From assembly GCF_000316685.1 (NCBI RefSeq), contig NC_019680.1:62001-126000 (forward strand): a DNA stretch of 64,000 nucleotides, read 5' to 3'. The position numbers were made by a program, and so were the translations under genes. Source of the DNA: Synechococcus sp. PCC 6312 (GTDB lineage Bacteria; Cyanobacteriota; Cyanobacteriia; Thermosynechococcales; Thermosynechococcaceae). This document shows, piece after piece, positions 953-48,536 of this stretch (position 1 is the stretch's first letter; the number at the start of each line of letters is the position of its first letter). The notes under the pieces are model-generated. The model made no database searches. It saw only the letters and a list, made by a program, of their open reading frames with translations, and had not been told where the DNA came from.

Positions 953-1732
953 TTAAATTGGAAAGTATTGCGGCTCGATTCCAGGGCCAATCAGGAGAAG
1001 AGAGTTTTCTTTCATCAGTTCCCACTTCTCTTGGGGGGTAAAGGGTTCCGAGGCAATTTGTACCCCCCCTGGATTTTGCCAATAGAGAGTTGGGATGGGT
1101 TCAGGATTACCGCAGCGGGCGGCGAGGAGATAGTTACCATCGGTGACAACCATATTTAAGGCCACTCGAACCCCATTGGCTTCGGCTAGTTCTAGGACGA
1201 TGCGGAGGGTTTGGCGGAGGGCCATAATTGGGGAAAGCTGGGGATTCGAGACCATTTCACTGCAAAACAGGGCAAACAGATGTTCAGAATCTGTCGTTCC
1301 CTCAATCAGGGCATAGGACAAGTCGTTGAGGCGATTGCGAATGGGGCGATAGAGGCTTTGCCGGAAGTTTTCAATAAAACCGTTATGAATACCTAACCAG
1401 CGGCCCCAGCGAAAGGGTTGGGAATTACTCAGTTGTAACGCTTGCCCAGGGGTGGCACTTCTCACACTGGCCAGAACACAGCCGGACTCAACAAAGCGGG
1501 CTAAATGCTCTGTGAAATTGAGATCACTCCAAATCGGGAGAACTTGCCGATACAAAAACGGTTCTACGGCCTGGCGGGGATGATACCAACCGACTCCAAA
1601 GCCATCGGCATTCAGTAAGCCTACGGTCATCTCACGGGGTAAGTAGCTTTGGACTAGGAGAGAATGCTCTGGGATTAATATTAAATGTTCAAGACTGCGA
1701 ACCGGCCCCAAATAGGCTAAGAGACGACACAT
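953..1732 (-). CDS. Class II glutamine amidotransferase, EgtC/YafJ-like
   Basis: The protein starts MCRLLAYLG, giving the N-terminal Cys nucleophile (Cys2) of class II (Ntn-type) amidotransferases. I therefore choose the ATG at 1732 rather than a TTG nine bases upstream, which would bury the Cys. Further family features are the 'NADGFGVGWY' segment, 'ASVRSATPG' and the 'HNGFIENF' motif of the glutamine pocket. At about 259 residues it is the size of stand-alone EgtC/YafJ proteins, with no synthase domain attached. EgtC hydrolyses a gamma-glutamyl amide in ergothioneine synthesis, but no other ergothioneine gene lies nearby, so the substrate is open. It converges with the antiporter gene, 11 bases apart. 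Confidence 0.8.
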   Translation of the reverse strand: MCRLLAYLGPVRSLEHLILIPEHSLLVQSYLPREMTVGLLNADGFGVGWYHPRQAVEPFLYRQVLPIWSDLNFTEHLARFVESGCVLASVRSATPGQALQLSNSQPFRWGRWLGIHNGFIENFRQSLYRPIRNRLNDLSYALIEGTTDSEHLFALFCSEMVSNPQLSPIMALRQTLRIVLELAEANGVRVALNMVVTDGNYLLAARCGNPEPIPTLYWQNPGGVQIASEPFTPQEKWELMKENSLLLIGPGIEPQYFPI

Positions 1733-2083
1733 AGCAGGCAAAACTCCAGAGGGACTAGTTTAATTATGGGGGCTACCCTTCAACACGGCTCAATTCCGAC
1801 TCACCCGAGCAAGACTCCGCATCATTGGGGGATAGGCTGGCCGGGAGTTAATTTAAGTCATTCAAAGATAATGCTGATCACTATACTAAAGGTCTCATCG
1901 TTGCAGCCGGCCCAATTAAGAAGGCAGTGGATAGATGGACTCTCTGTTTGGGATGTCATTCTGCTGACTAGAGCCTGGAATCCGCTGACTGTTAGGTTAG
2001 AGAAAGTTAACTGGGTTGATCCATGCGCTGATCTACCGGAATAGATACCTGCTTTAATTGCACTCCTTCGAGATTTTAATCCT
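1733..2083. other. Intergenic region between two divergent genes, no recognised feature
   Basis: About 350 bases separate the amidotransferase start from the ExbB-like gene, which diverges from it. The segment must hold both promoters. I see no convincing protein, RNA gene or strong hairpin. Two overlapping open frames here (one per strand) have no recognisable family features and no good ribosome binding site. Confidence 0.5.
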
Positions 2084-3418
2084 ATGCCCCTGATTGCCCC
2101 CCCTTCACTGCCCGCCCGTAAGTCCATTGATGCCAATATCTGGTTAGCCCTTGCAGGGGGCCTGGTGGGGACGGTTATTATTTATGCGCTCCTGATCCCG
2201 TTTCAGACTAGTTATATTGGGCAATTGCTGTTTAATCGGGGTTGGACTCAGCCCGTGGTGATTTTGTTTGCCCTCTTAGTGGCGATTTTTACCCTCCTCA
2301 AGTGGATGCGAGTCCTAGTGGAGGCGCGGGCCCTGAAGCAGGCCTGGATTCCCGGAAATTTTCCCATTCAATCCCCGACCGATGATCAACTTTGGGACTT
2401 TCAACAAACCCTGAGTAAACGCCGGGCGGTTTTGCCGATTCGTTGTGCCCGGATTTTGGGGGCTTATATGCAGGGGCAAACCCGAGAAGCTGCCGCAGAG
2501 ATGGCCTTGGATGATGGGGCAGTGGCTAGTGCAGCATCGGAGAGTTCTTATACCTTGCCGCGAGTTTTGGTATGGGCGATTCCGCTGCTGGGGTTTATCG
2601 GTACTGTAGTCGGGATTAGCCAGGCCGTGGATGGATTTTCTCGCTTTCTCCAGGCCGCCCAAGAGGTGGATCAAATTAAAGAAGGGATTGGCAGTGTCAC
2701 CACTGGGTTAGCTGTAGCCTTTGATACAACCCTGTTGGCTCTGGTGCTGAGTGTCTTGGTGATGATTCCCCTGGTGATGGTGGAGCGGCTGGAGTCCCAG
2801 TTATTGCTGAATATGGACAGTTACATCAATGACTTTGTTTTGGGGCGCATTAGCGGGACTGCGGCGGAAACAGCCGGCCCCAGTTTGGGGGTAGAGGAGT
2901 TACGGCAAACGGTGCAAGAGGTTTTACGGGAAGAGTTACCTGGCCTGGAGGAAAAAATTGTCCCCCTGCCCGAAAAACTAGAAACCGTCTTAAATCAGTT
3001 TGGCCGACTTTCCCAGGCCTTGGCCAATGACCGCAAGCAATTTTTAGCCACCTTAACGGAAAACCAGCAAACCCAGGCCCAAGCCCTAGAGCAACTGTTA
3101 GCTCAATTTCATCATCAAGGGGCATTATTCCTGGAGACGATGCAGCAGGGACAGGTGGAAGCTTCCAGTAAAATCACCAGTCAAGCCGCTGAAGTGGCCC
3201 AAGTTCTCGATCAAACCAATCAAATTTTGCAGCAGCGATTGGAGGTGATTACTTCCCTGGATGGGGCCTTAAAAACCCTAGCGGATACGGGGAGTTTACA
3301 GGGGGTCTTAAAGGAGTTAGAACTAACCCTGATCCAATTGCAACCGACCTTGCAGCAGCTTTCTCAACCTCGCCGTGTCACCCTCGTTGAACAGGCCTGG
3401 GATAACAACAAATCCTAA
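2084..3418 (+). CDS. MotA/TolQ/ExbB-type proton channel protein with long helical tail
   Basis: 444 residues. Hydrophobic segments at about 20-43 and 58-78 are followed by a cytoplasmic stretch. Then comes the family core: a segment beginning AIPLLGFIGTVVGISQA (near 165-185) and a second around TGLAVAFDTTLLALVLSVLV (near 210-235), which form the channel helices of MotA/TolQ/ExbB proteins. After these, about 190 residues (250-444) are rich in Gln, Glu and Leu and look like one long coiled-coil tail, which ExbB and TolQ lack. These channels use proton flow to power a partner. The ExbD-like gene follows after 66 bases and is the obvious partner. No TonB, Tol-Pal or flagellar gene is nearby. The tail resembles the organisation of ZorA of Zorya defence systems, but no ZorC/D/E is present. 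The target of the force is unknown. Confidence 0.78.
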   Translation: MPLIAPPSLPARKSIDANIWLALAGGLVGTVIIYALLIPFQTSYIGQLLFNRGWTQPVVILFALLVAIFTLLKWMRVLVEARALKQAWIPGNFPIQSPTDDQLWDFQQTLSKRRAVLPIRCARILGAYMQGQTREAAAEMALDDGAVASAASESSYTLPRVLVWAIPLLGFIGTVVGISQAVDGFSRFLQAAQEVDQIKEGIGSVTTGLAVAFDTTLLALVLSVLVMIPLVMVERLESQLLLNMDSYINDFVLGRISGTAAETAGPSLGVEELRQTVQEVLREELPGLEEKIVPLPEKLETVLNQFGRLSQALANDRKQFLATLTENQQTQAQALEQLLAQFHHQGALFLETMQQGQVEASSKITSQAAEVAQVLDQTNQILQQRLEVITSLDGALKTLADTGSLQGVLKELELTLIQLQPTLQQLSQPRRVTLVEQAWDNNKS

Positions 3419-3484
3419 GCCTTAGCATTGCTTAATAATGCGCGATCTCTCTACCTGAAACCTCACCGAAGGTCTTGATGAATT

Positions 3485-3934
3485 ATGCCCCGCCGCCATC
3501 ACGCTCCTGAACTGGATCTCTTTCCATTCCTCTCTGTCTTGGCCTGTACCATTGGCACGCTGATTCTGATGGTGGTGGTGATCAGTACCAGCAGTCTTCA
3601 AAAAGACCGGAGTAATGTCCAAATTTTGGCCCGAGAAACCGCCCAAGGTGAAAAAACGCCCCGTTATGTTGAATGTCTGGCCAGAGGAGTCTTGATTCAT
3701 CCCCAAAGAACCCTGGTTCCCACAGCCCAACTGGATAGCCCCACCGCTGCGTTTACTAAACTCGTCAATCAGATCAAAAGTCGTCCATCGGAATATATTA
3801 TCGTTGCGGTTCGCCCCGATGGTTTTGACTGCTTTGAAAAAGCGCGGGCCGTTGTGGAGCAAGCTGGGGTGGCCATTGGTTTTGAACCCTTTAATGCGGA
3901 TTGGAAACTCTGTTTGAAGCAACCCTGTCAATGA
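3485..3934 (+). CDS. ExbD/TolR-like membrane protein
   Basis: 149 residues with one N-terminal membrane helix: the segment PELDLFPFLSVLACTIGTL includes an Asp at about residue 11, the position of the proton-carrying Asp in ExbD, TolR and MotB, followed by the characteristic PF motif. The remaining 110 or so residues are a small periplasmic-type domain with two Cys residues near the C-terminus; there is no OmpA peptidoglycan-binding domain. Together with the upstream MotA/ExbB-type protein it should form a proton-driven motor complex. Its stop codon overlaps the likely mutL start (ATGA at 3931-3934), so translation of the two is probably coupled. Confidence 0.75.
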   Translation: MPRRHHAPELDLFPFLSVLACTIGTLILMVVVISTSSLQKDRSNVQILARETAQGEKTPRYVECLARGVLIHPQRTLVPTAQLDSPTAAFTKLVNQIKSRPSEYIIVAVRPDGFDCFEKARAVVEQAGVAIGFEPFNADWKLCLKQPCQ

Positions 3935-39264: not shown

Positions 39265-40827
39265 ATGACCGTTGTCTATCAAAGTCGGTTCCTCCGGTTT
39301 TGGCGGGTTCAAGTTCACCGCTGGCAACATCATTGGCAAATTCAGCACCGCCGCTGGCAAACCTCTTTTAAGTGGACAGTCCAGGCCTGGGTTTATCCTC
39401 TTTATCGCCTCGTCCAATTAAACCAGTGGTTACCCAGGGGCCTCAAACAGGGTCTTAAACAACAATGGCAAGCCCTCCAGGCCCAGGCCGAACCGCAACC
39501 GCCGCCCGCCAGTGATACCCCGATTGTCAATCTGCTGCACTCTTTGGACAGTCCAGGTTTAACTCTGATTCACGCCGATGGGGTAGCGGCTCCCCAGTTC
39601 ATTCTCCATCCTCCGCAACCCAAGCCACGATCACCCCTAGACCAGGCCTGGGCGCAACTCACATCCTTAGGAATCACGGGCTGGCAAACTCTGCAAACTT
39701 GGTTTCATCCGCTGGAATCGCCCCAATTAACGACTACTCCCGATCCACTGCTCCTCGCCCCATCCCTTGCCTCACCCCCCTTAAAACCCATCATCCCCCT
39801 ACAGGCCTGGTGGCAGTGGTTTCAGACTCAATCCGCAAAAATTCGTTCTGTTCGTCCAGTGGTGCCAATTCCACCCGCCAGCCCAGGAACCTCTGCCTTG
39901 GCCACTCAAACCACCTCTTTGGACTTAACCACAACAGAACTTCCAGAACATCTGACTCGTTCATCAGGTTCTCAAGGCTGGGCCTGGGTCAAAACGGCCG
40001 CGACACAGATTAGCCAAAAAGTTTCCCAAACAACCCTGGGACTTTGGCAAAAGCGGGATCACCTCACCCGGCCCAAAACCCTTACCGCAGCCTTAACTCC
40101 CCAGGCCTCAGAGATTCAACTCCGCAATGCCTCAGATTTAGAAGCTTGGCCAACGGGCAACTTAGTATCCCCAAAAATCGAAATTCACGGCATTGCCAGT
40201 CAGCTAGCCAATCAGGATTTGGTCTTAGTCGGTTCTGAAAATCAGATTTTTGATATTCTCACCCCCCAACAGCAACAACAACTCCGAGAACGGATTTTGT
40301 GGGAATTGGCTGGGTATTACTATCAACTCCGGCAGTGGCAGCATCTCACCGGCCAGTCTTTAGCCAAATGGGGATTAGCCACCAGCACAACTGTATCCCT
40401 TGATCCAGCCCCCCCGAATCCACCCCGGCCCCATGTCAGCTTGCTACCCCAACTTGGCAGATCACCCTTACCGTTCCATCGCCTCTGGGATCAATTCCAG
40501 GCCTGGTTATTGGGTTGGCCCCCTCGCTCTCGTGAAGCCCAATCCCTGATCATTCCTGAAGCTCCAGTCAGGGCTATTTGCCAAAATCCAACCCAATTTA
40601 TCAGTCCCTTATCCGGCTCACATACCCCAAAACTAGCCAACCCCACCCAATCCCCAGGTCTAACCGCCACGCATCCATTCACCCTGGATATTGACTCAAC
40701 CTTTTTAGGCTATGAACCCCAAGGCCTGGAAATGATTTGGTTGTGGCTGGATCGTCTTTTTCTATGGATAGAACGGGCCTGGGCCTGGTTGTGGGGATTA
40801 GGGCCAAAACTGGGAAATTTGGGATAA
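39265..40827 (+). CDS. Trp-rich protein of unknown function
   Basis: 520 residues, ATG start. I recognise no catalytic domain. The N-terminus is basic and aromatic (RVQVHRWQHHWQIQHRRWQ), resembling an amphipathic membrane-binding stretch. The middle (90-290) is Pro/Thr/Ser-rich and probably disordered. A conserved-looking patch occurs at about 310-370 (IEIHGIASQLANQDLVLVGS ... ILWELAGYYYQLRQW), and the C-terminus is again Trp-rich. Several of the Trp residues arise from CCAGGCCTGG palindromes read as Gln-Ala-Trp. Probably a cyanobacteria-specific envelope or membrane-associated protein. Confidence 0.55.
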   Translation: MTVVYQSRFLRFWRVQVHRWQHHWQIQHRRWQTSFKWTVQAWVYPLYRLVQLNQWLPRGLKQGLKQQWQALQAQAEPQPPPASDTPIVNLLHSLDSPGLTLIHADGVAAPQFILHPPQPKPRSPLDQAWAQLTSLGITGWQTLQTWFHPLESPQLTTTPDPLLLAPSLASPPLKPIIPLQAWWQWFQTQSAKIRSVRPVVPIPPASPGTSALATQTTSLDLTTTELPEHLTRSSGSQGWAWVKTAATQISQKVSQTTLGLWQKRDHLTRPKTLTAALTPQASEIQLRNASDLEAWPTGNLVSPKIEIHGIASQLANQDLVLVGSENQIFDILTPQQQQQLRERILWELAGYYYQLRQWQHLTGQSLAKWGLATSTTVSLDPAPPNPPRPHVSLLPQLGRSPLPFHRLWDQFQAWLLGWPPRSREAQSLIIPEAPVRAICQNPTQFISPLSGSHTPKLANPTQSPGLTATHPFTLDIDSTFLGYEPQGLEMIWLWLDRLFLWIERAWAWLWGLGPKLGNLG

Positions 40828-40957
40828 GGCAAGGCATCCTTTGAAACAGAGTGGTGGAGCCGGTGGTGGCTACCTCCTGGCCTGGGTGAGGGCGTGACTC
40901 AGATGTAGCCAAGACTACAAAGCAAAATCTAAAAGAAAAGCAAACAAGGGAGAAAAT

Positions 40958-41000
40958 GTATATTCAGATACAATTCCCAGTCCAGTCATCGCACTACTAT
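40958..41000 (+). promoter_or_regulatory. NtcA-activated promoter of the urt operon
   Basis: A perfect NtcA palindrome GTA-N8-TAC lies at 40958-40971, and a -10-like box TACTAT at 40995-41000, 23 bases further on. This is the classic layout of a nitrogen-controlled class II promoter (GTAN8TAC followed about 22 bases later by TAN3T). It sits 93 bases upstream of urtA. urt operons of other cyanobacteria are known to be NtcA-dependent, so induction under nitrogen limitation is expected. Confidence 0.8.
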
Positions 41001-41092: not shown

Positions 41093-42391
41093 ATGACCAG
41101 GGGCATTCGGCGGCGTGACTTTATCGTATTTGGTTCCGTGGCGGCCGGGAGTATTCTCCTCAAGGCTTGTGGCGGCGAAACAACAACCACAACGGAGGGT
41201 TCTCCTAGCCCAGCAGCCGGTGGCGAAACCATTAAGGTTGGGATTTTGCACTCCCTCAGCGGCACGATGGCCATTAGTGAAAAAAGTGTTGTTGATTCCA
41301 CGATGATGGCGATCAAAGAAATTAATGACGCAGGCGGTGTCCTCGGCAAGCAAATTGAAGCGATCCAAGAAGATGGGGCCTCTGACTGGCCAACCTTTAA
41401 CGAAAAAGCCAAGAAACTGATCCAGCAGGATAAGGTTGTCACTGTTTTTGGCTGTTGGACATCTGCCAGCCGCAAAGCCGTGTTGCCCACCTTTGAAGCC
41501 GAAGATCATATGCTTTGGTATCCCGTCCAGTACGAAGGGCAAGAATGCTCGAAAAATATTTTCTACACTGGTGCAGCTCCCAACCAGCAGATTGAACCCT
41601 CTGTGACTTGGTTAATGGAGCAATATCCCGGTAAACCCTTCTTCCTGGTGGGGTCTGACTATGTGTTCCCCCGCACCGCCAATACGATCATCAAGGCCCA
41701 GTTGGCCGCTAAGGGGGGCAAGGTTGTCGGTGAAGACTACATTCCCTTGGGCGGTACAGAAGTCACCCCGATTATTTCCAAAATCAAGGCGGCGATGCCC
41801 GATGGCGGGATTATCTACAACAGCTTAAACGGGGACAGCAACGTTGCCTTCTTCAAACAATTGCAAGGGGCTGGGATGGGGCCAGATAAATATCCTTCTA
41901 TGTCTGTCAGTATCGCCGAAGAAGAAGTCCAGGCCATTGGGGTGGAATATTTGAAAGGTCACTTTGCGGCCTGGAACTATTTCCAAACCGTGGATACCCC
42001 GGCCAACAAGGTCTTTGTGGCTAACTTCAAGAAAATGTACGGAGAAGATCGGGTCGTCAACGATCCGATGGAAGCGGGTTACATTGCTGTCAATATTTGG
42101 AAGCAAGCCGTTGAGAAAGCTGGAACTGCTGATGACCTCAACAAAGTTCGGATGGCGGCTCTTGGGCAAACCTTTGATGCTCCAGAAGGAAACGTGACGA
42201 TGGAAAATAACCACCACTTGTCCAAATGGGTCCGGATCGGTAAGGTTCAGGATGATGGACTCTTTGAGATTGTCTATTCTACTGATGGCCCCGTTGCGCC
42301 TCTGCCCTGGAACCAATTTGTCCCGGAAACTAAGGGCTTTGCCTGTGACTGGTCTGATCCAGCTAAAGGTGGCAAGTTCAAAATGAGCTAA
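41093..42391 (+). CDS. urtA: Urea ABC transporter, substrate-binding protein UrtA
   Basis: 432 residues. The N-terminus RRRDFIVFGS...LLKACGG combines a twin-arginine-like signal and a lipobox, so it is probably a lipoprotein on the periplasmic face. The mature part is a branched-chain-amino-acid-type periplasmic binding protein: IKVGILHSLSGTMAISEKSV, then EDGASDWPTF, GCWTSASRKAVLP and MLWYPVQYEGQECSKN, which are specific to the urea/amide branch (UrtA/AmiC). It delivers urea to the UrtBC permease. It is separated from urtB by 173 bases containing a terminator, which would keep its expression above that of the permease. Confidence 0.95.
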   Translation: MTRGIRRRDFIVFGSVAAGSILLKACGGETTTTTEGSPSPAAGGETIKVGILHSLSGTMAISEKSVVDSTMMAIKEINDAGGVLGKQIEAIQEDGASDWPTFNEKAKKLIQQDKVVTVFGCWTSASRKAVLPTFEAEDHMLWYPVQYEGQECSKNIFYTGAAPNQQIEPSVTWLMEQYPGKPFFLVGSDYVFPRTANTIIKAQLAAKGGKVVGEDYIPLGGTEVTPIISKIKAAMPDGGIIYNSLNGDSNVAFFKQLQGAGMGPDKYPSMSVSIAEEEVQAIGVEYLKGHFAAWNYFQTVDTPANKVFVANFKKMYGEDRVVNDPMEAGYIAVNIWKQAVEKAGTADDLNKVRMAALGQTFDAPEGNVTMENNHHLSKWVRIGKVQDDGLFEIVYSTDGPVAPLPWNQFVPETKGFACDWSDPAKGGKFKMS

Positions 42392-42428
42392 TGACACCTA
42401 CGTCTTCAAATCCCGTTTGATTTGGCAT

Positions 42429-42480
42429 CTGGGGTTACAGATTTAAGTTCGGATTGGATTTAGACTGTACCCCAGTTTTT
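42429..42480 (+). terminator. Intrinsic terminator/attenuator between urtA and urtB
   Basis: An 11-base-pair stem with one bulged T, CTGGGG-T-TACAG (42429-42440) pairing with CTGTACCCCAG (42465-42475), with a 24-base loop, is followed at once by TTTTT (42476-42480). It lies 38 bases after the urtA stop. Partial termination here would give more binding protein than membrane components, as seen in many ABC uptake operons. Confidence 0.7.
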
Positions 42481-42564
42481 ATACCAAATTAAGGGAAACC
42501 AAGCGGGGTTCGGACAAATGAAGGCCCGTGTAATCAGTTTTTGCCTGGAGAAGGAGAACTTACC

Positions 42565-43716
42565 TTGACACAGCTTTTAGAAGCGGTTTTCGGTGGCTTA
42601 AGTATTGGCTCTGTTTTGCTCCTCTCTGCCCTTGGCCTGGCGATTGTTTTTGGCCTGATGGGGGTGATCAATATGGCCCACGGTGAATTGATGATGTTGG
42701 GGGCCTACACCACGTTTGTGACCCAAAACATTCTCAAAGCCACACCCTTGGCCCCCGTTTATATCTTTGTCGCCCTGATTGCGGCCTTCATTGTCACCGC
42801 TTTGGTGGGCTTGCTCTTGGAGCGAAGTGTGGTGCGGTTTCTCTATGGCAGACCTCTAGAAACCCTCTTGGCGACTTGGGGAGTGAGTCTGATTCTCCAA
42901 CAGCTTGTTCGTAGTGTCAGTTGGCAATTTGTGACGGGCCTGGGGATTTTTTGTTTGCTCTATTTTGGGGCGCAATCGTTGCTGGCCTGGAAAACTGACT
43001 TTGACCGCATCCGTAACTGGTTTATCGGGATTATGCTCCCCTTGTCGGCCATTATTGCCCTGGTGGTCTCCAATGTCTTGGGCAATGCCTATAAGCTTGC
43101 TTTTACAAAACCCTGGTTTGGCACTCAAGGTGTAGATGTCACGGCTCCCCAATGGTTACGGGGTGGATTGGTGATTGATACCTACCAGCTTCCCTATACC
43201 CGCCTATTCATCATTATTTTGACCATTCTCTGTCTGGTTGCCGTTTATTGGTTTTTAAATCAGACGGCCTGGGGCTTACGAATTCGCGCCGTGACCCAAA
43301 ATCGCTCCATGAGTGCTTGTCTAGGGATTCCGACCCAAAAAGTGGATGCGCTCACCTTTGCCATTGGTTCAGGCCTGGCGGGAATTGCCGGATGTGCGGT
43401 GGCTCTTTTAGGGTCTGTGAGTTCCAACACTGGCCAAGCCTATATTGTCGATACCTTCATGGTGGTGGTCGTGGGTGGGGTTGGTAAATTGGTCGGGAGT
43501 ATTGTTGCGGCTGGTACTATTGGCACCCTGAGCTATGTGATTGGCTCCAACGCCCTTTCCCCGTTAATTGGCTTTAATGACCAAATCAAAACAGTCCTAG
43601 AGTTCTTTGCAACGGCCAGTATGGCCAAGGTGGTCGTTTTTGCCTTAATTATTGTTTTTCTCCAATTCCGGCCAGCGGGTTTATTCCCCCAGAAAGGCCG
43701 CACAGTGGATGCCTAG
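42565..43716 (+). CDS. urtB: Urea ABC transporter permease UrtB
   Basis: 383 residues with a TTG start at 42565, chosen because aaggagaa lies 6-7 bases upstream; an in-frame TTG at 42541 would put this ribosome binding site inside the gene. LivH-type permease with about eight to nine helices. Family motifs are LSALGLAIVFGLMGVINMAHGELMM split over helices 1-2, the cytoplasmic loop NQTAWGLRIRAVTQNRSMS, and GSGLAGIAGCAVALLGSV. It forms the membrane channel with UrtC. The urtC start is 9 bases downstream. Confidence 0.94.
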   Translation: MTQLLEAVFGGLSIGSVLLLSALGLAIVFGLMGVINMAHGELMMLGAYTTFVTQNILKATPLAPVYIFVALIAAFIVTALVGLLLERSVVRFLYGRPLETLLATWGVSLILQQLVRSVSWQFVTGLGIFCLLYFGAQSLLAWKTDFDRIRNWFIGIMLPLSAIIALVVSNVLGNAYKLAFTKPWFGTQGVDVTAPQWLRGGLVIDTYQLPYTRLFIIILTILCLVAVYWFLNQTAWGLRIRAVTQNRSMSACLGIPTQKVDALTFAIGSGLAGIAGCAVALLGSVSSNTGQAYIVDTFMVVVVGGVGKLVGSIVAAGTIGTLSYVIGSNALSPLIGFNDQIKTVLEFFATASMAKVVVFALIIVFLQFRPAGLFPQKGRTVDA

Positions 43717-43725
43717 GAATAGCTT

Positions 43726-44937
43726 ATGACTCCAACACTTGCTCCCCCTGTCCTCCAAAAATCACCCCGCAGTCGTAAAAAGCAACTCATTACTGAAGCG
43801 ATTGTCGTAGCCGTGGTTGCCCTGATTTTACTCTTTGTCATGCCTTGGATTTTTGCCCAGGCCGGTCAGGGGGTACGGGTCAACCAGTTGGGGCGGTTTA
43901 TGGCCTTGGCGATTGCGGCCTTGGGGATTGACTTAATTTGGGGCTATACGGGTTTACTCAGTTTGGGCCATGGCTTGTTTTTTGCCTTGGGTGGCTATGC
44001 CTTGGCCATGTATTTACAGTTGCAGCCATTACCGGGGCAAACTGAAGTCCTGATTCCTGAGTTTTTTACTCTCTATGGGGTGGACAAACTGCCCTGGTTT
44101 TGGGAGCCGTTTTATTCCTTTCCCTTTACATTAGCGGCAATTATTGTCATCCCAGGCCTGGTGGCAGCGGCATTCGGCTATTTGATTTTCCGCAACCGGA
44201 TCAAAGGCGTTTATTTCTCAATCCTGACCCAGGCCGCCTTAATTGTATTTTTTAACTTCTTCAATGGGCAACAAAAGCTCATTAATGGAACCAATGGCCT
44301 GAAAACCGATACCGCCACGATTTTTGGAGTCTTAGTCGGCTCACCCCCGGTTCAAACCACTTTTTACGCCCTCAGTATTCTCTTTGTTATTGTTGGCTAT
44401 GTCCTCTGTCGGTGGTTAACCAGTGGGCGCATGGGGCGGATGTTGGTGGCGATTCGGGACGATGAAACTCGGGTGCGATTTTCTGGCTATAACCCCACCG
44501 GCTACAAGGTGTTTGTGTTTGCGATTTCGGCAATTTTGGCTGGGATTGCGGGGGCTTTGTTTACAGTTCAGTCTGGGATCATTACCCCGAGTTCCTCCAT
44601 GAGTGTGGCTTTTTCCATTGAAATGGTGATTTGGGTTGCGGTTGGGGGGCGGGGGACATTGATCGGGGCAGTCCTAGGAACCCTAATTGTCAACTTTGCC
44701 AAAACCCTTTTAAGTGAGCAATTTCCTGCCTTTTGGCTGTTTTTCCAAGGCGCTTTATTCCTGATTGTGGTCACTGTCTTACCGATGGGGATTTTAGGCT
44801 GGTTCCGCACCACAGGTTGGAAATTCATTTGGGGACGCTTTGGCCCACAACCCATCGAAACCTATCCCAGTCTTGAGCTAGATCCAGAGGTGGAGTATGA
44901 GCGGGAAACTATTGAGCATCAGCAATCTGACCGTTAG
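43726..44937 (+). CDS. urtC: Urea ABC transporter permease UrtC
   Basis: 403 residues, LivM-type permease. A basic N-terminus is followed by a first helix (AIVVAVVALILLFVM), then GYTGLLSLGHGLFFALGGYA (the conserved LSLGH motif) and the cytoplasmic loop RMLVAIRDDETRVRFSGYNPT. The C-terminal helices end in a polar tail. Its end overlaps the urtD coding region by 41 bases, which indicates tight translational coupling. Confidence 0.94.
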   Translation: MTPTLAPPVLQKSPRSRKKQLITEAIVVAVVALILLFVMPWIFAQAGQGVRVNQLGRFMALAIAALGIDLIWGYTGLLSLGHGLFFALGGYALAMYLQLQPLPGQTEVLIPEFFTLYGVDKLPWFWEPFYSFPFTLAAIIVIPGLVAAAFGYLIFRNRIKGVYFSILTQAALIVFFNFFNGQQKLINGTNGLKTDTATIFGVLVGSPPVQTTFYALSILFVIVGYVLCRWLTSGRMGRMLVAIRDDETRVRFSGYNPTGYKVFVFAISAILAGIAGALFTVQSGIITPSSSMSVAFSIEMVIWVAVGGRGTLIGAVLGTLIVNFAKTLLSEQFPAFWLFFQGALFLIVVTVLPMGILGWFRTTGWKFIWGRFGPQPIETYPSLELDPEVEYERETIEHQQSDR

Positions 44938-45649
44938 TTTTGACGGCTTCAAGGCCATTAACAACCTTAATTTCAGCATGGAAGAAGGGGAACTCCGGGT
45001 TGTGATTGGCCCCAATGGTGCCGGAAAAACTACCTTCATGGACTGCATTACGGGCAAAACTAAACCCACCTCTGGGACTGTTATTTTTAAAGGGAAGGAC
45101 TTACGCCCCTACGCTGAATATGAAATTGCCCGGATGGGAATGGGGATTGGCCGCAAATTTCAAACGCCTCGGGTTTTTCTAAATCTCACTCCCAGAGAAA
45201 ACTTAGAACTTTCCTGTTTCCGTAAAAAAAACTTATTTGGCTCACTCTTTGCTAAGACATCTAAGCGAGAAAAACTCACCGTTGATGAGGTGCTGGAAAC
45301 AGTTGGCCTGGAACACAAAGCAGATATGCTTTCCGCACTTCTTTCTCATGGAGAAAAGCAACGCTTAGAAATTGGGATGCTTGTGGCTCAATCACCCGAC
45401 TTAATGTTGGTTGATGAACCTGTGGCTGGCTTAACTGATGAAGAAACGGAAAAAGTCGGGGATTTGCTTCTAGCTTTGTCCAAAACTCACTCGATTATGG
45501 TGATTGAGCATGATATGGAGTTTGTCCGCCAGATTGCCAAACAGGTAACGGTCTTACATCAAGGGTCGGTTTTATTTGAAGGCAATATGGACGAGGTACA
45601 AAATGACCCGCGGGTGATTGAGGTTTATCTCGGCAAACAAGAAGATTAA
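44897..45649 (+). CDS. urtD: Urea ABC transporter ATP-binding protein UrtD
   Basis: 250 residues, LivG-type ATPase. Walker A GPNGAGKTT, Q-loop in GRKFQTPRVF, ABC signature LSHGEKQRLEIG, Walker B DLMLVDEPVAGL and H-loop IEHDMEF. The signature begins LSHGE instead of LSGGQ, typical of the UrtD branch. It works with UrtE to energise urea uptake. Normally urtE follows directly; here a restriction-modification pair separates them. Confidence 0.95.
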   Translation: MSGKLLSISNLTVSFDGFKAINNLNFSMEEGELRVVIGPNGAGKTTFMDCITGKTKPTSGTVIFKGKDLRPYAEYEIARMGMGIGRKFQTPRVFLNLTPRENLELSCFRKKNLFGSLFAKTSKREKLTVDEVLETVGLEHKADMLSALLSHGEKQRLEIGMLVAQSPDLMLVDEPVAGLTDEETEKVGDLLLALSKTHSIMVIEHDMEFVRQIAKQVTVLHQGSVLFEGNMDEVQNDPRVIEVYLGKQED

Positions 45650-45669: not shown

Positions 45670-46755
45670 ATGGCGCACCCTGGATTATTTGGCATCGTCC
45701 ACTCAAATCGAAACTTTGCAGAGCAGGAGAATTGGGGAAAAAATTGCTTCAATAGCTCATTCCCTATGGCCCTGTGTTGCTATATGAGTCACATGAACAT
45801 TTCTCCTGTCTACATTTCTATTGATAATAAACTGAATATTAAGCATGAAAAGGAGTCGGTATCTCAATTATTTGGTATTCCTTCAAATTCCTCAGACTTA
45901 TTTTTTGGTTTTGAAACAGTATACTTGCCATATCAAAACTTTGTTCACGGAATTTATTACTCTGCTGATGTTGTTTTGAGCAACAAGATAACTAGGCATC
46001 AATTCAGGTGCTTTGAAATCAAACTTACGGCATTACCTGACAATACAACTTGCAGTTTAAGTGATAGTGAATTTAGCTGTGAAATCGTAGTGCGACCGAG
46101 CACTATCGCATTTGTAGCACTGGGTATAGTTAACCACATTTCTAACACTGGATTAGTTCAGATATTTTCTAGGTTACTAAGCCCAATTTGTAGTCAAATA
46201 CAGAATTGGCAGGATAAGAACGAAATACTGATTCACCTTAGTCATTTTAAGCAAGCTATGATTGACGTTATATCTTTTTTGCTAAATCAAAAACAAAAGA
46301 TATACACTCAACAACCGCTAGTAATCCAACCAGTTTGGAAGACCCTAGGTAAATCATCAACACTACATGATAACTGTCTTGATACTTTTATTTGGTCAGA
46401 TTTGGCGTTAATCTTGTTGCCGCTTCATCAAATTAATACATCAAGAAGAACTCAAAACATATCAAGACCAGCCCGTACAATAATTTGGTTAATTAAGATG
46501 CTTTATGACTTTATAATCAATGGGCAGATTAATATAGCTCAAGTCATAGATACGCTAACATATGATACCAAGAACGATAAAGCTTTTGCAGCCAGTGGAC
46601 GGGTAACGCACCCATTCCTATCTAGTCCAGAACTAACTCAGCCACGGATCAAGAAATCTGAAATTAAAAATATAATCCTAAATGGTGGGCAAAATCTTTT
46701 AAGTCCTGAACGCAGATTCGATGCCATTATCGTCAATACCCCCGGATTATTTTGA
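45670..46755 (+). CDS. HindVP-type type II restriction endonuclease
   Basis: 361 residues, ATG 20 bases after urtD. The opening PGLFGIVHSNRNF, then ENWGKNCFNSSFP and CYMSH, is the signature of the HindVP restriction enzyme family (relatives HgiDI and AcyI-type enzymes), which cut GRCGYC. A charged stretch FRCFEIKLTALPDN contains a D/E-x-K-like E-I-K that could be part of the catalytic site. The C5-methyltransferase gene follows after 9 bases, as expected for the modification partner of this family. Codon use is AT-rich and unlike the urt genes. No strong ribosome binding site is visible, so it may depend on transcription and translation from urtD. Confidence 0.85.
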   Translation: MAHPGLFGIVHSNRNFAEQENWGKNCFNSSFPMALCCYMSHMNISPVYISIDNKLNIKHEKESVSQLFGIPSNSSDLFFGFETVYLPYQNFVHGIYYSADVVLSNKITRHQFRCFEIKLTALPDNTTCSLSDSEFSCEIVVRPSTIAFVALGIVNHISNTGLVQIFSRLLSPICSQIQNWQDKNEILIHLSHFKQAMIDVISFLLNQKQKIYTQQPLVIQPVWKTLGKSSTLHDNCLDTFIWSDLALILLPLHQINTSRRTQNISRPARTIIWLIKMLYDFIINGQINIAQVIDTLTYDTKNDKAFAASGRVTHPFLSSPELTQPRIKKSEIKNIILNGGQNLLSPERRFDAIIVNTPGLF

Positions 46756-46764
46756 GTTTGGCCT

Positions 46765-47775
46765 ATGTTTTTCAGTAAAAGCCTTAGGGTAATTGACTTA
46801 TTTTCTGGCTGTGGTGGAATGTCACTTGGCTTTCAATCTGCTGGCTATGATGTTGTTGCTGCTTACGATAATTGGCCTCCAGCGATTCATGTCTATCAAC
46901 AAAACTTTGATCATCCAATACTGAATATTGACTTAGGCGATCCTCTACTTAGTTTTCAAGAATTTGAAGAGTTTGATGCTGAAATAATTATTGGTGGCCC
47001 ACCTTGCCAAGATTTCTCTCATGCTGGAAAAAGAAATGAAGAATTAGGTAGAGCAGATTTAACCATAACATTTGCAAGAATTATTACCTATGTTAAGCCA
47101 AAACTATTTGTTATGGAGAATGTAGATCGCATCTTAAGAAGTAAAAAATATGAAGTTGCCAAAGACTTGCTCAAGAAAGCTGGATACGGATTAACTGAAG
47201 TTATATTAAATGCTAGTTTCTGTCATGTCCCACAAAATCGCAAAAGACTCTTTCTAATCGGTGATTTAGGTGCTTATGATCACTTTATGAATCATTTTTT
47301 AGAACACAATCTTAGTTCCGTTCCTCTAACAGTACGTCAATATTTTGAAGAAGAATTAGGGAATAGCTTAGATACAGAATATTATTATAGACACCCTAGA
47401 AACTATTCTCGTAGAGCAATATATAGCATTGATGAACCAAGTGCCACAATTCGTGGGGTAAATCGTCCAATTCCGAAAAATTATCAAATTCATCCTGCTG
47501 ATGCTTGTGATTCACTTGATAGAGTACGCCCATTAACTACGAGAGAACGTGCCACAATTCAAACTTTCCCGATTAACTTTCTATTTTCGGGTACAAAGAC
47601 TAATATTGAGCAGATGATTGGCAATGCTGTCCCTGTAAAACTTGCCCATTATGTTGCCACATCGGTTATGAGCTATATCAAGTGTAAAGAGCAGAACCAA
47701 TTAATTACTTATGAGCAGCTTTCTTTCCTTTCTTCTCAACTTCAATCCGCTCCCAGTTTAGTTTCTTTAAGGTAG
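46765..47775 (+). CDS. DNA (cytosine-5-)-methyltransferase, partner of the HindVP-type endonuclease
   Basis: 336 residues with all main m5C motifs in order: I DLFSGCGGMSLGFQ, IV GGPPCQDFSHAG (catalytic Cys), VI FVMENVD, VIII PQNRKRLFLIGD, IX ERATIQTFP and X IGNAVPVKLA. The target-recognition region lies at about 170-250. By association with the HindVP-type enzyme it should protect GRCGYC by methylating a cytosine (inference). It ends 5 bases before urtE, and its stop region supplies the aagg ribosome binding site for urtE, so it has become part of the operon. Confidence 0.92.
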   Translation: MFFSKSLRVIDLFSGCGGMSLGFQSAGYDVVAAYDNWPPAIHVYQQNFDHPILNIDLGDPLLSFQEFEEFDAEIIIGGPPCQDFSHAGKRNEELGRADLTITFARIITYVKPKLFVMENVDRILRSKKYEVAKDLLKKAGYGLTEVILNASFCHVPQNRKRLFLIGDLGAYDHFMNHFLEHNLSSVPLTVRQYFEEELGNSLDTEYYYRHPRNYSRRAIYSIDEPSATIRGVNRPIPKNYQIHPADACDSLDRVRPLTTRERATIQTFPINFLFSGTKTNIEQMIGNAVPVKLAHYVATSVMSYIKCKEQNQLITYEQLSFLSSQLQSAPSLVSLR

Positions 47776-47780
47776 TACCT

Positions 47781-48536
47781 ATGATTTCTCAAGATAACTC
47801 GAAGAATCAGTATTTAGATAATGATGGTCAACCCACTTTGAAGGTTGATGGACTGAATGTCTATTACGGTGAGAGTCATATCCTCCGGGATGTGGACATG
47901 GGGGTAGCTCCAGGTAAAATGGTCTGTCTGATTGGGCGCAATGGAGTCGGTAAAACAACCCTGCTTAAGACGATTATGGGACTCCTCAAACCCCGCCGCG
48001 GCGATATTGCCTTTCAAGGAGCATCAATTAAGAACTTGACTTCAGATCAACGGGCGCGGGCGGGAATTGGCTATGTTCCCCAAGGGCGGGAGATTATTCC
48101 CAGGTTGACGGTGGGTGAGAATTTATTGCTGGGCCTGGAGGCGACTAAGGGCGGTGTCAAGCCCAATGCTAAAGTCCCCGAAGAAATTTATGAATTGTTT
48201 CCGGTTTTGAAAACCATGCTGAATCGGATGGGCGGTGACTTGAGCGGTGGACAGCAACAGCAGTTGGCGATTGCTCGGGCCTTGATGGGAAAACCTCGTC
48301 TTTTAGTTTTGGATGAGCCAACGGAAGGAATTCAACCCTCGATCATTCTGGAAATTGAAGCTGCGGTGAAACGGATTGTTCGAGAAACGGGAATTTCGGT
48401 ATTACTTGTGGAGCAGCATTTACACTTTGTCCGCCAGGCCGATTGGTACTATGCCATGCAAAAAGGCGGGATTGTGTCTCAGGGGCCAACCAGCGAACTG
48501 AGTAATGATGTGATTCAAAAATTCTTAGCGGTTTAA
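47781..48536 (+). CDS. urtE: Urea ABC transporter ATP-binding protein UrtE
   Basis: 251 residues, LivF-type ATPase. Walker A GRNGVGKTT, Q-loop GYVPQGREI, signature DLSGGQQQQLAIARAL, Walker B RLLVLDEPTEGI and H-loop VEQHLHF. The conserved family start corresponds to LKVDGLNVYYGESHIL at residue 20. The first 19 residues (MISQDNSKNQYLDNDGQPT) are an AT-rich, polar extension that UrtE proteins normally lack. A TTG at 47838 would give the ancestral-length protein. The ATG at 47781 has an aagg ribosome binding site formed by the end of the methyltransferase gene. Its 3' end overlaps the convergent DUF92 gene by four bases. Confidence 0.93.
   Translation: MISQDNSKNQYLDNDGQPTLKVDGLNVYYGESHILRDVDMGVAPGKMVCLIGRNGVGKTTLLKTIMGLLKPRRGDIAFQGASIKNLTSDQRARAGIGYVPQGREIIPRLTVGENLLLGLEATKGGVKPNAKVPEEIYELFPVLKTMLNRMGGDLSGGQQQQLAIARALMGKPRLLVLDEPTEGIQPSIILEIEAAVKRIVRETGISVLLVEQHLHFVRQADWYYAMQKGGIVSQGPTSELSNDVIQKFLAV

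Follow-up and report, generated by a model that had tools for sequence, protein, structure and literature searches.

A conserved class II NtcA-type promoter predicted upstream of urtA in Synechococcus sp. PCC 6312, in a urt operon that carries a restriction-modification pair

Within a 64,000-nucleotide stretch of the Synechococcus sp. PCC 6312 genome (the window), a canonical class II NtcA-activated promoter very probably drives the urea-transport operon urtABCDE, as judged from its sequence and from the same arrangement in related genomes. The genome also encodes NtcA itself (TIGR03697, 385.3 bits; cut-off 244.95). The promoter is of the ordinary, evolutionarily conserved NtcA type, and because urtA NtcA promoters have been described in other cyanobacteria it is a fresh instance of an established kind, extending the known NtcA regulon by a further clear example. 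Only the context of the operon, which carries a restriction-modification pair, is worth following up, and we regard it as mildly interesting.

The predicted promoter upstream of urtA

The sequence at 40958-40971, read directly, is GTATATTCAGATAC, an exact match to GTAN8TAC embedded in AATGTATATTCAGATACAAT. It is followed after 23 bases by the -10 box TACTAT, of the form TAN3T, which ends 92 bases upstream of the urtA start codon at 41093. The letters and coordinates of the original prediction, which had placed GTA-N8-TAC, 23 bases and TACTAT in front of urtA, were confirmed by this reading. Transcription is predicted to start at A41006, giving an 87-nt leader, and A41006 is the natural class II start because the NtcA site is centred 41.5 bases from it. 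Searched at gathering thresholds, Rfam matched no RNA family in the window, so that neither the leader nor the hairpin found 3' of urtA (Table 1) is explained by a curated RNA family. Canonical NtcA-activated promoters are described, in the available text of PMC3898017, as carrying GTAN8TAC near -41.5 together with a TAN3T box, and the same text lists urtA, nirA, ntcB and glnA as bearing them and treats urtA and nirA as textbook nitrogen-control genes. NtcA control of the urt genes is also stated in the portions available of PMC6603209 and PMC6737895. On the urtA strand, further 5', lies a 520-codon open reading frame (ORF; 39265-40827) for which neither Pfam nor NCBIfam gave a match at E values up to 0.001.

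Table 1. Positions in the window of the predicted promoter elements and of the operon genes
Feature	Position	Strand	Basis
NtcA-type binding site GTATATTCAGATAC	40958..40971	+	exact GTAN8TAC; same arrangement before urtA in relatives
-10 box TACTAT (TAN3T), 23 bases past the NtcA-type site	40995..41000	+	sequence; spacing of 22 or 23 in relatives
Predicted transcription start (A)	41006	+	inferred from class II geometry
Second GTAN8TAC match GTAGCCAAGACTAC	40905..40918	+	53 bases upstream of the first; without a spaced -10 box
urtA, urea ABC transporter substrate-binding protein	41093..42391	+	432-codon ORF; TIGR03407, 590.2 bits (cut-off 492.75)
Terminator-like hairpin (dG -23.3 kcal/mol) and TTTTT, urtA-urtB gap	42429..42480	+	fold scan
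urtB	42541..43716	+	TIGR03409 above cut-off
urtC	43726..44937	+	TIGR03408 above cut-off
urtD	44897..45649	+	TIGR03411 above cut-off
HindVP/HgiDI-family type II restriction endonuclease	45670..46755	+	PF09519, 516.6 bits; PADLOC REase_II
Cognate C5-cytosine methyltransferase	46765..47775	+	PF00145; PADLOC MTase_II, 462.5 bits
urtE	47781..48536	+	TIGR03410 above cut-off

On its own the match at urtA is unremarkable. GTAN8TAC has 8 occurrences in the window, where 5.4 are expected, and the full pattern GTAN8TACN23TAN3T has a single exact match there. Across the 3.72-Mb genome the exact full pattern was found 10 times compared with 27 for the reversed control, and with the spacing widened to 20-24 bases the counts were 58 and 161. 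We rejected the genome-wide count as evidence of function, as it shows no enrichment. Seven of the ten exact matches fall within ORFs (at least 80 codons, called mechanically), and the one nearest the beginning of its ORF (L033) reads by inspection like a glycosyltransferase coding region. The other three lie outside, upstream of a same-strand ORF, and precede urtA, nirA (ferredoxin-nitrite reductase, 864.1 bits) and a glycogen phosphorylase gene (686 bits). At the last of these (L041, C1:3667549-3670591 of this genome) the exact class II NtcA pattern stands shortly 5' of the gene, which is a possible further NtcA target. As the pattern alone proves little, it is the context that decides, namely the position of the urtA site and its conservation.

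UrtA was searched for in 58 genomes including this one, and 43 gave a match at E < 1e-150. Genomes with a weaker match or none were excluded, as were two (G037 and G025) in which the UrtA matches were broken over contig ends or into pieces, and the comparison set consisted of our genome and 40 relatives. In each the 400 bases 5' of urtA were scanned (255 and 264 in two cases). An exact GTAN8TAC followed by TAN3T at 20-25 bases was present in 26 of these 41 regions, which are not independent, many of the relatives being close to one another. Under the same criterion the mean over 200 dinucleotide shuffles was 0.15 and the maximum 1, a second set of 100 shuffles had a mean of 0.15 and a maximum of 2, and the other strand yielded 4 of 41. 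When one mismatch at most was allowed at a spacing of 21-24, the arrangement was found in 36 of 41 regions (shuffle mean 2.96; other strand 6). The distance from the exact core to the box was 22 in 7 regions and 23 in 18, together 25 of the 26 boxes, and exact cases came from 18 of the 27 genera. Five of the 41 regions lacked the arrangement even at up to one mismatch and a spacing of 21-24, and three of these hold an exact core without the spaced box. G003, the relative whose full-length UrtA is most similar to ours (84%), has a one-mismatch site only, GTGCTTAACGCTAC. The placement before urtA and the arrangement shared with relatives lie far beyond chance, and this conservation, together with the published work on urtA elsewhere, strongly supports the class II NtcA promoter of urtA that had been proposed.

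The second GTAN8TAC match, at 40905-40918, may be due to chance. A cooperative role for the two sites, with the upstream one holding a second NtcA dimer that aids activation, would be in keeping with the exactness of both cores and with their 53-base spacing, close to five turns of DNA. We consider this improbable, however, since the upstream core is not conserved (two exact cores occur in only 2 of the 41 regions, our own included) and the chance of an extra core in about 265 bases is a few percent at the density seen in the window. That the GTAN8TAC and the TAN3T box stand 23 bases apart by coincidence, with urtA driven in some other way, is highly improbable: the genome-wide frequency of the pattern, being below that of the reversed control, would suit such a view, but the recurrence of the arrangement with the same spacing before orthologous urtA genes largely refutes it.

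The restriction-modification pair in the urt operon

The endonuclease and methyltransferase genes sit between urtD and urtE with gaps of 20, 9 and 5 nt from urtD through to urtE, and their G+C contents (0.365 and 0.363) compare with 0.487 for the window. None of the 34 relatives with both urtD and urtE in the fetched stretch had a comparable insertion, and in these the urtD stop and the aligned urtE start are at most 214 bases apart; for two of them (L045 and L066), which have partial or paralogous urtE matches, the distance was set individually, and in six other relatives urtD or urtE was missing from the stretch. The endonuclease family (PF09519) was not detected in the 28 other genomes searched from the same family of organisms; it was found in 5 of 58 genomes overall (our own included, and one a weak partial match) and in 33 of 386 in a phylum-wide draw, again including our own. 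Among 38 fetched loci that hold the endonuclease, whole or in pieces, 36 have a methyltransferase 3' of it on the same strand, and urt genes stand beside the pair at our own locus only, most loci having been fetched with 1.5 kb on each side. As urtD and urtE are uninterrupted in relatives and the endonuclease-methyltransferase order recurs elsewhere, the pair has the look of a standard cassette whose insertion into the urt operon took place in this lineage. A search for target-site duplications found no direct repeat of at least 12 bases on either side of the insertion. Plasmid relatives of the endonuclease are distant: all 24 records are below 60% identity, and the 8 among the matches listed stand at about 35%, so that no recent donor was identified.

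The pair looks functional. The endonuclease carries the motifs EIK (residues 116-118) and SPERRFD (345-351) and is 48% identical over its full length to a Herpetosiphon giganteus protein, in which EIK aligns with EIK. The text available from PMC2413257 proposes the ExK motif as catalytic in the HindVP/HgiDI family, reports that two members without ExK are inactive, and states that BsaHI, HgiDI and HgiGI recognise GRCGYC. GRCGYC, the presumed target here, occurs once in the window, where a Markov model predicts 22.2 occurrences and shuffles give 39, and once in 120 kb of other loci from this genome against 36.3 expected, a rough count as the loci partly overlap (L133 and L134, for instance). 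The whole 3.72-Mb genome contains 117 sites, a ratio of 0.045 to the reversed words.

Depletion was weaker in loci without the enzyme, with 97 sites against 172.6 expected in 21 loci from the same family and 106 against 165.2 in loci from other classes, a set that includes one genome (G049) with a weak partial PF09519 match. In two loci whose genomes do have the enzyme, 5 sites were counted against 11.9 expected. Sixteen genomes of the same family, none with a detected HindVP gene, had ratios of 0.064 to 0.625, and 15 of them contain 1,047-3,896 sites; the other, G002, contains 173. The correspondence between gene and ratio is imperfect in both directions. Two genomes, G002 and G031, are depleted (0.064 and 0.059) without a detected HindVP gene, perhaps the trace of a lost system, whereas G035 has the gene and a ratio of only 0.208, close to those of G029 (0.207) and G034 (0.219), which are without it. 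A marked site deficiency accompanies a GRCGYC methyltransferase in 78% of cases according to the part of PMC4390886 available, so the depletion in our genome belongs to a known class of effects. It points to long-standing activity of a system of this type here or in ancestors, and the insertion at its present place could be younger than that activity.

Possible nitrogen control of the pair

NtcA acts in its 2-oxoglutarate-bound form with the co-activator PipX. Under nitrogen limitation a dimer of this form, with PipX, would bind at 40958-40971 and recruit RNA polymerase to the -10 box at 40995-41000, with transcription starting near A41006. Most transcripts would probably cover urtA, and a fraction would pass the hairpin 3' of urtA and read through into urtBCD, the restriction-modification pair and urtE.

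The hairpin is a possible partial terminator or mRNA stabiliser, and it may weaken this read-through. The stretch 42388-42545 folds with a z-score of -3.67, and 22 of 38 gaps 3' of urtA, counting our own, contain a hairpin with a T-rich tail, compared with about 8 when the gaps were mononucleotide-shuffled (two shuffles per gap). In a common arrangement the binding protein is produced in surplus and the remaining operon is expressed through partial read-through; the frequency of hairpins after urtA would fit such an arrangement.

Control by the NtcA promoter that extends through the operon to the restriction-modification genes, the second part of the original prediction, is plausible, since the genes are tightly packed; the prediction as a whole is thus partly supported. 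We favour, though only slightly, joint transcription of the pair with the urt operon. The main alternative, which we hold to be a serious one at somewhat short of an even chance, leaves the urtA promoter as described and places the pair outside effective nitrogen control, with a weak internal promoter for its expression and most upstream transcripts stopped at the hairpin. The hairpin, at -23.3 kcal/mol and followed by TTTTT, would suit this, but hairpins after urtA are found mostly in relatives in which urtBCDE follows, and for that reason need not block transcription. The need for methylation also speaks for this alternative: with 117 GRCGYC sites to protect, methylation is expected under all nitrogen conditions, and some expression of this methyltransferase would be needed in all of them because no other close copy was found in the genome, the next best match being 37% identical over half of the protein. 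Against it, a crude scan of urtD, the endonuclease and the methyltransferase found no sigma-70-like promoter on the + strand, and at 20, 9 and 5 nt the gaps offer little space between the genes.

A clear induction of the pair by nitrogen is, in our estimate, somewhat doubtful. Tentatively, and with still a little less confidence, we propose that insertion into the operon has put a functional GRCGYC system under NtcA control, so that defence and DNA methylation would rise under nitrogen stress, and that a fluctuating methyltransferase is tolerated as the host has purged nearly all of its sites; fluctuating levels of methyltransferase could be tolerable because GRCGYC sites are scarce. If the pair does ride on the NtcA promoter, the barrier to phage and other foreign DNA would depend on nitrogen status, and the locus would be a natural test of a restriction system surviving a fluctuating promoter. 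In the open-licence literature we found no paper on a restriction-modification pair within a urt operon or under NtcA control.

Comparison with known systems

The predicted promoter resembles those of urtA in Anabaena and other cyanobacteria, with GTAN8TAC at about -41.5 and a TAN3T -10 box as set out in the available text of PMC3898017, and NtcA control of urtABCDE is likewise stated in what is available of PMC6603209 and PMC6737895. It differs from these operons in the restriction-modification pair between urtD and urtE, and the transcription start given here is a prediction. The pair in turn resembles the HgiDI, HgiGI, BsaHI and HindVP systems in combining a PF09519 endonuclease with a C5 methyltransferase, in the ExK motif, which is reported for the known active enzymes (PMC2413257, in the portion available), and in SPERRFD. 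The gene order of BsaHI may differ from the endonuclease-then-methyltransferase order seen here, the same portion of PMC2413257 placing the methyltransferase upstream of the endonuclease. Unlike these systems, the pair described here is embedded in a transport operon that would be under nitrogen control.
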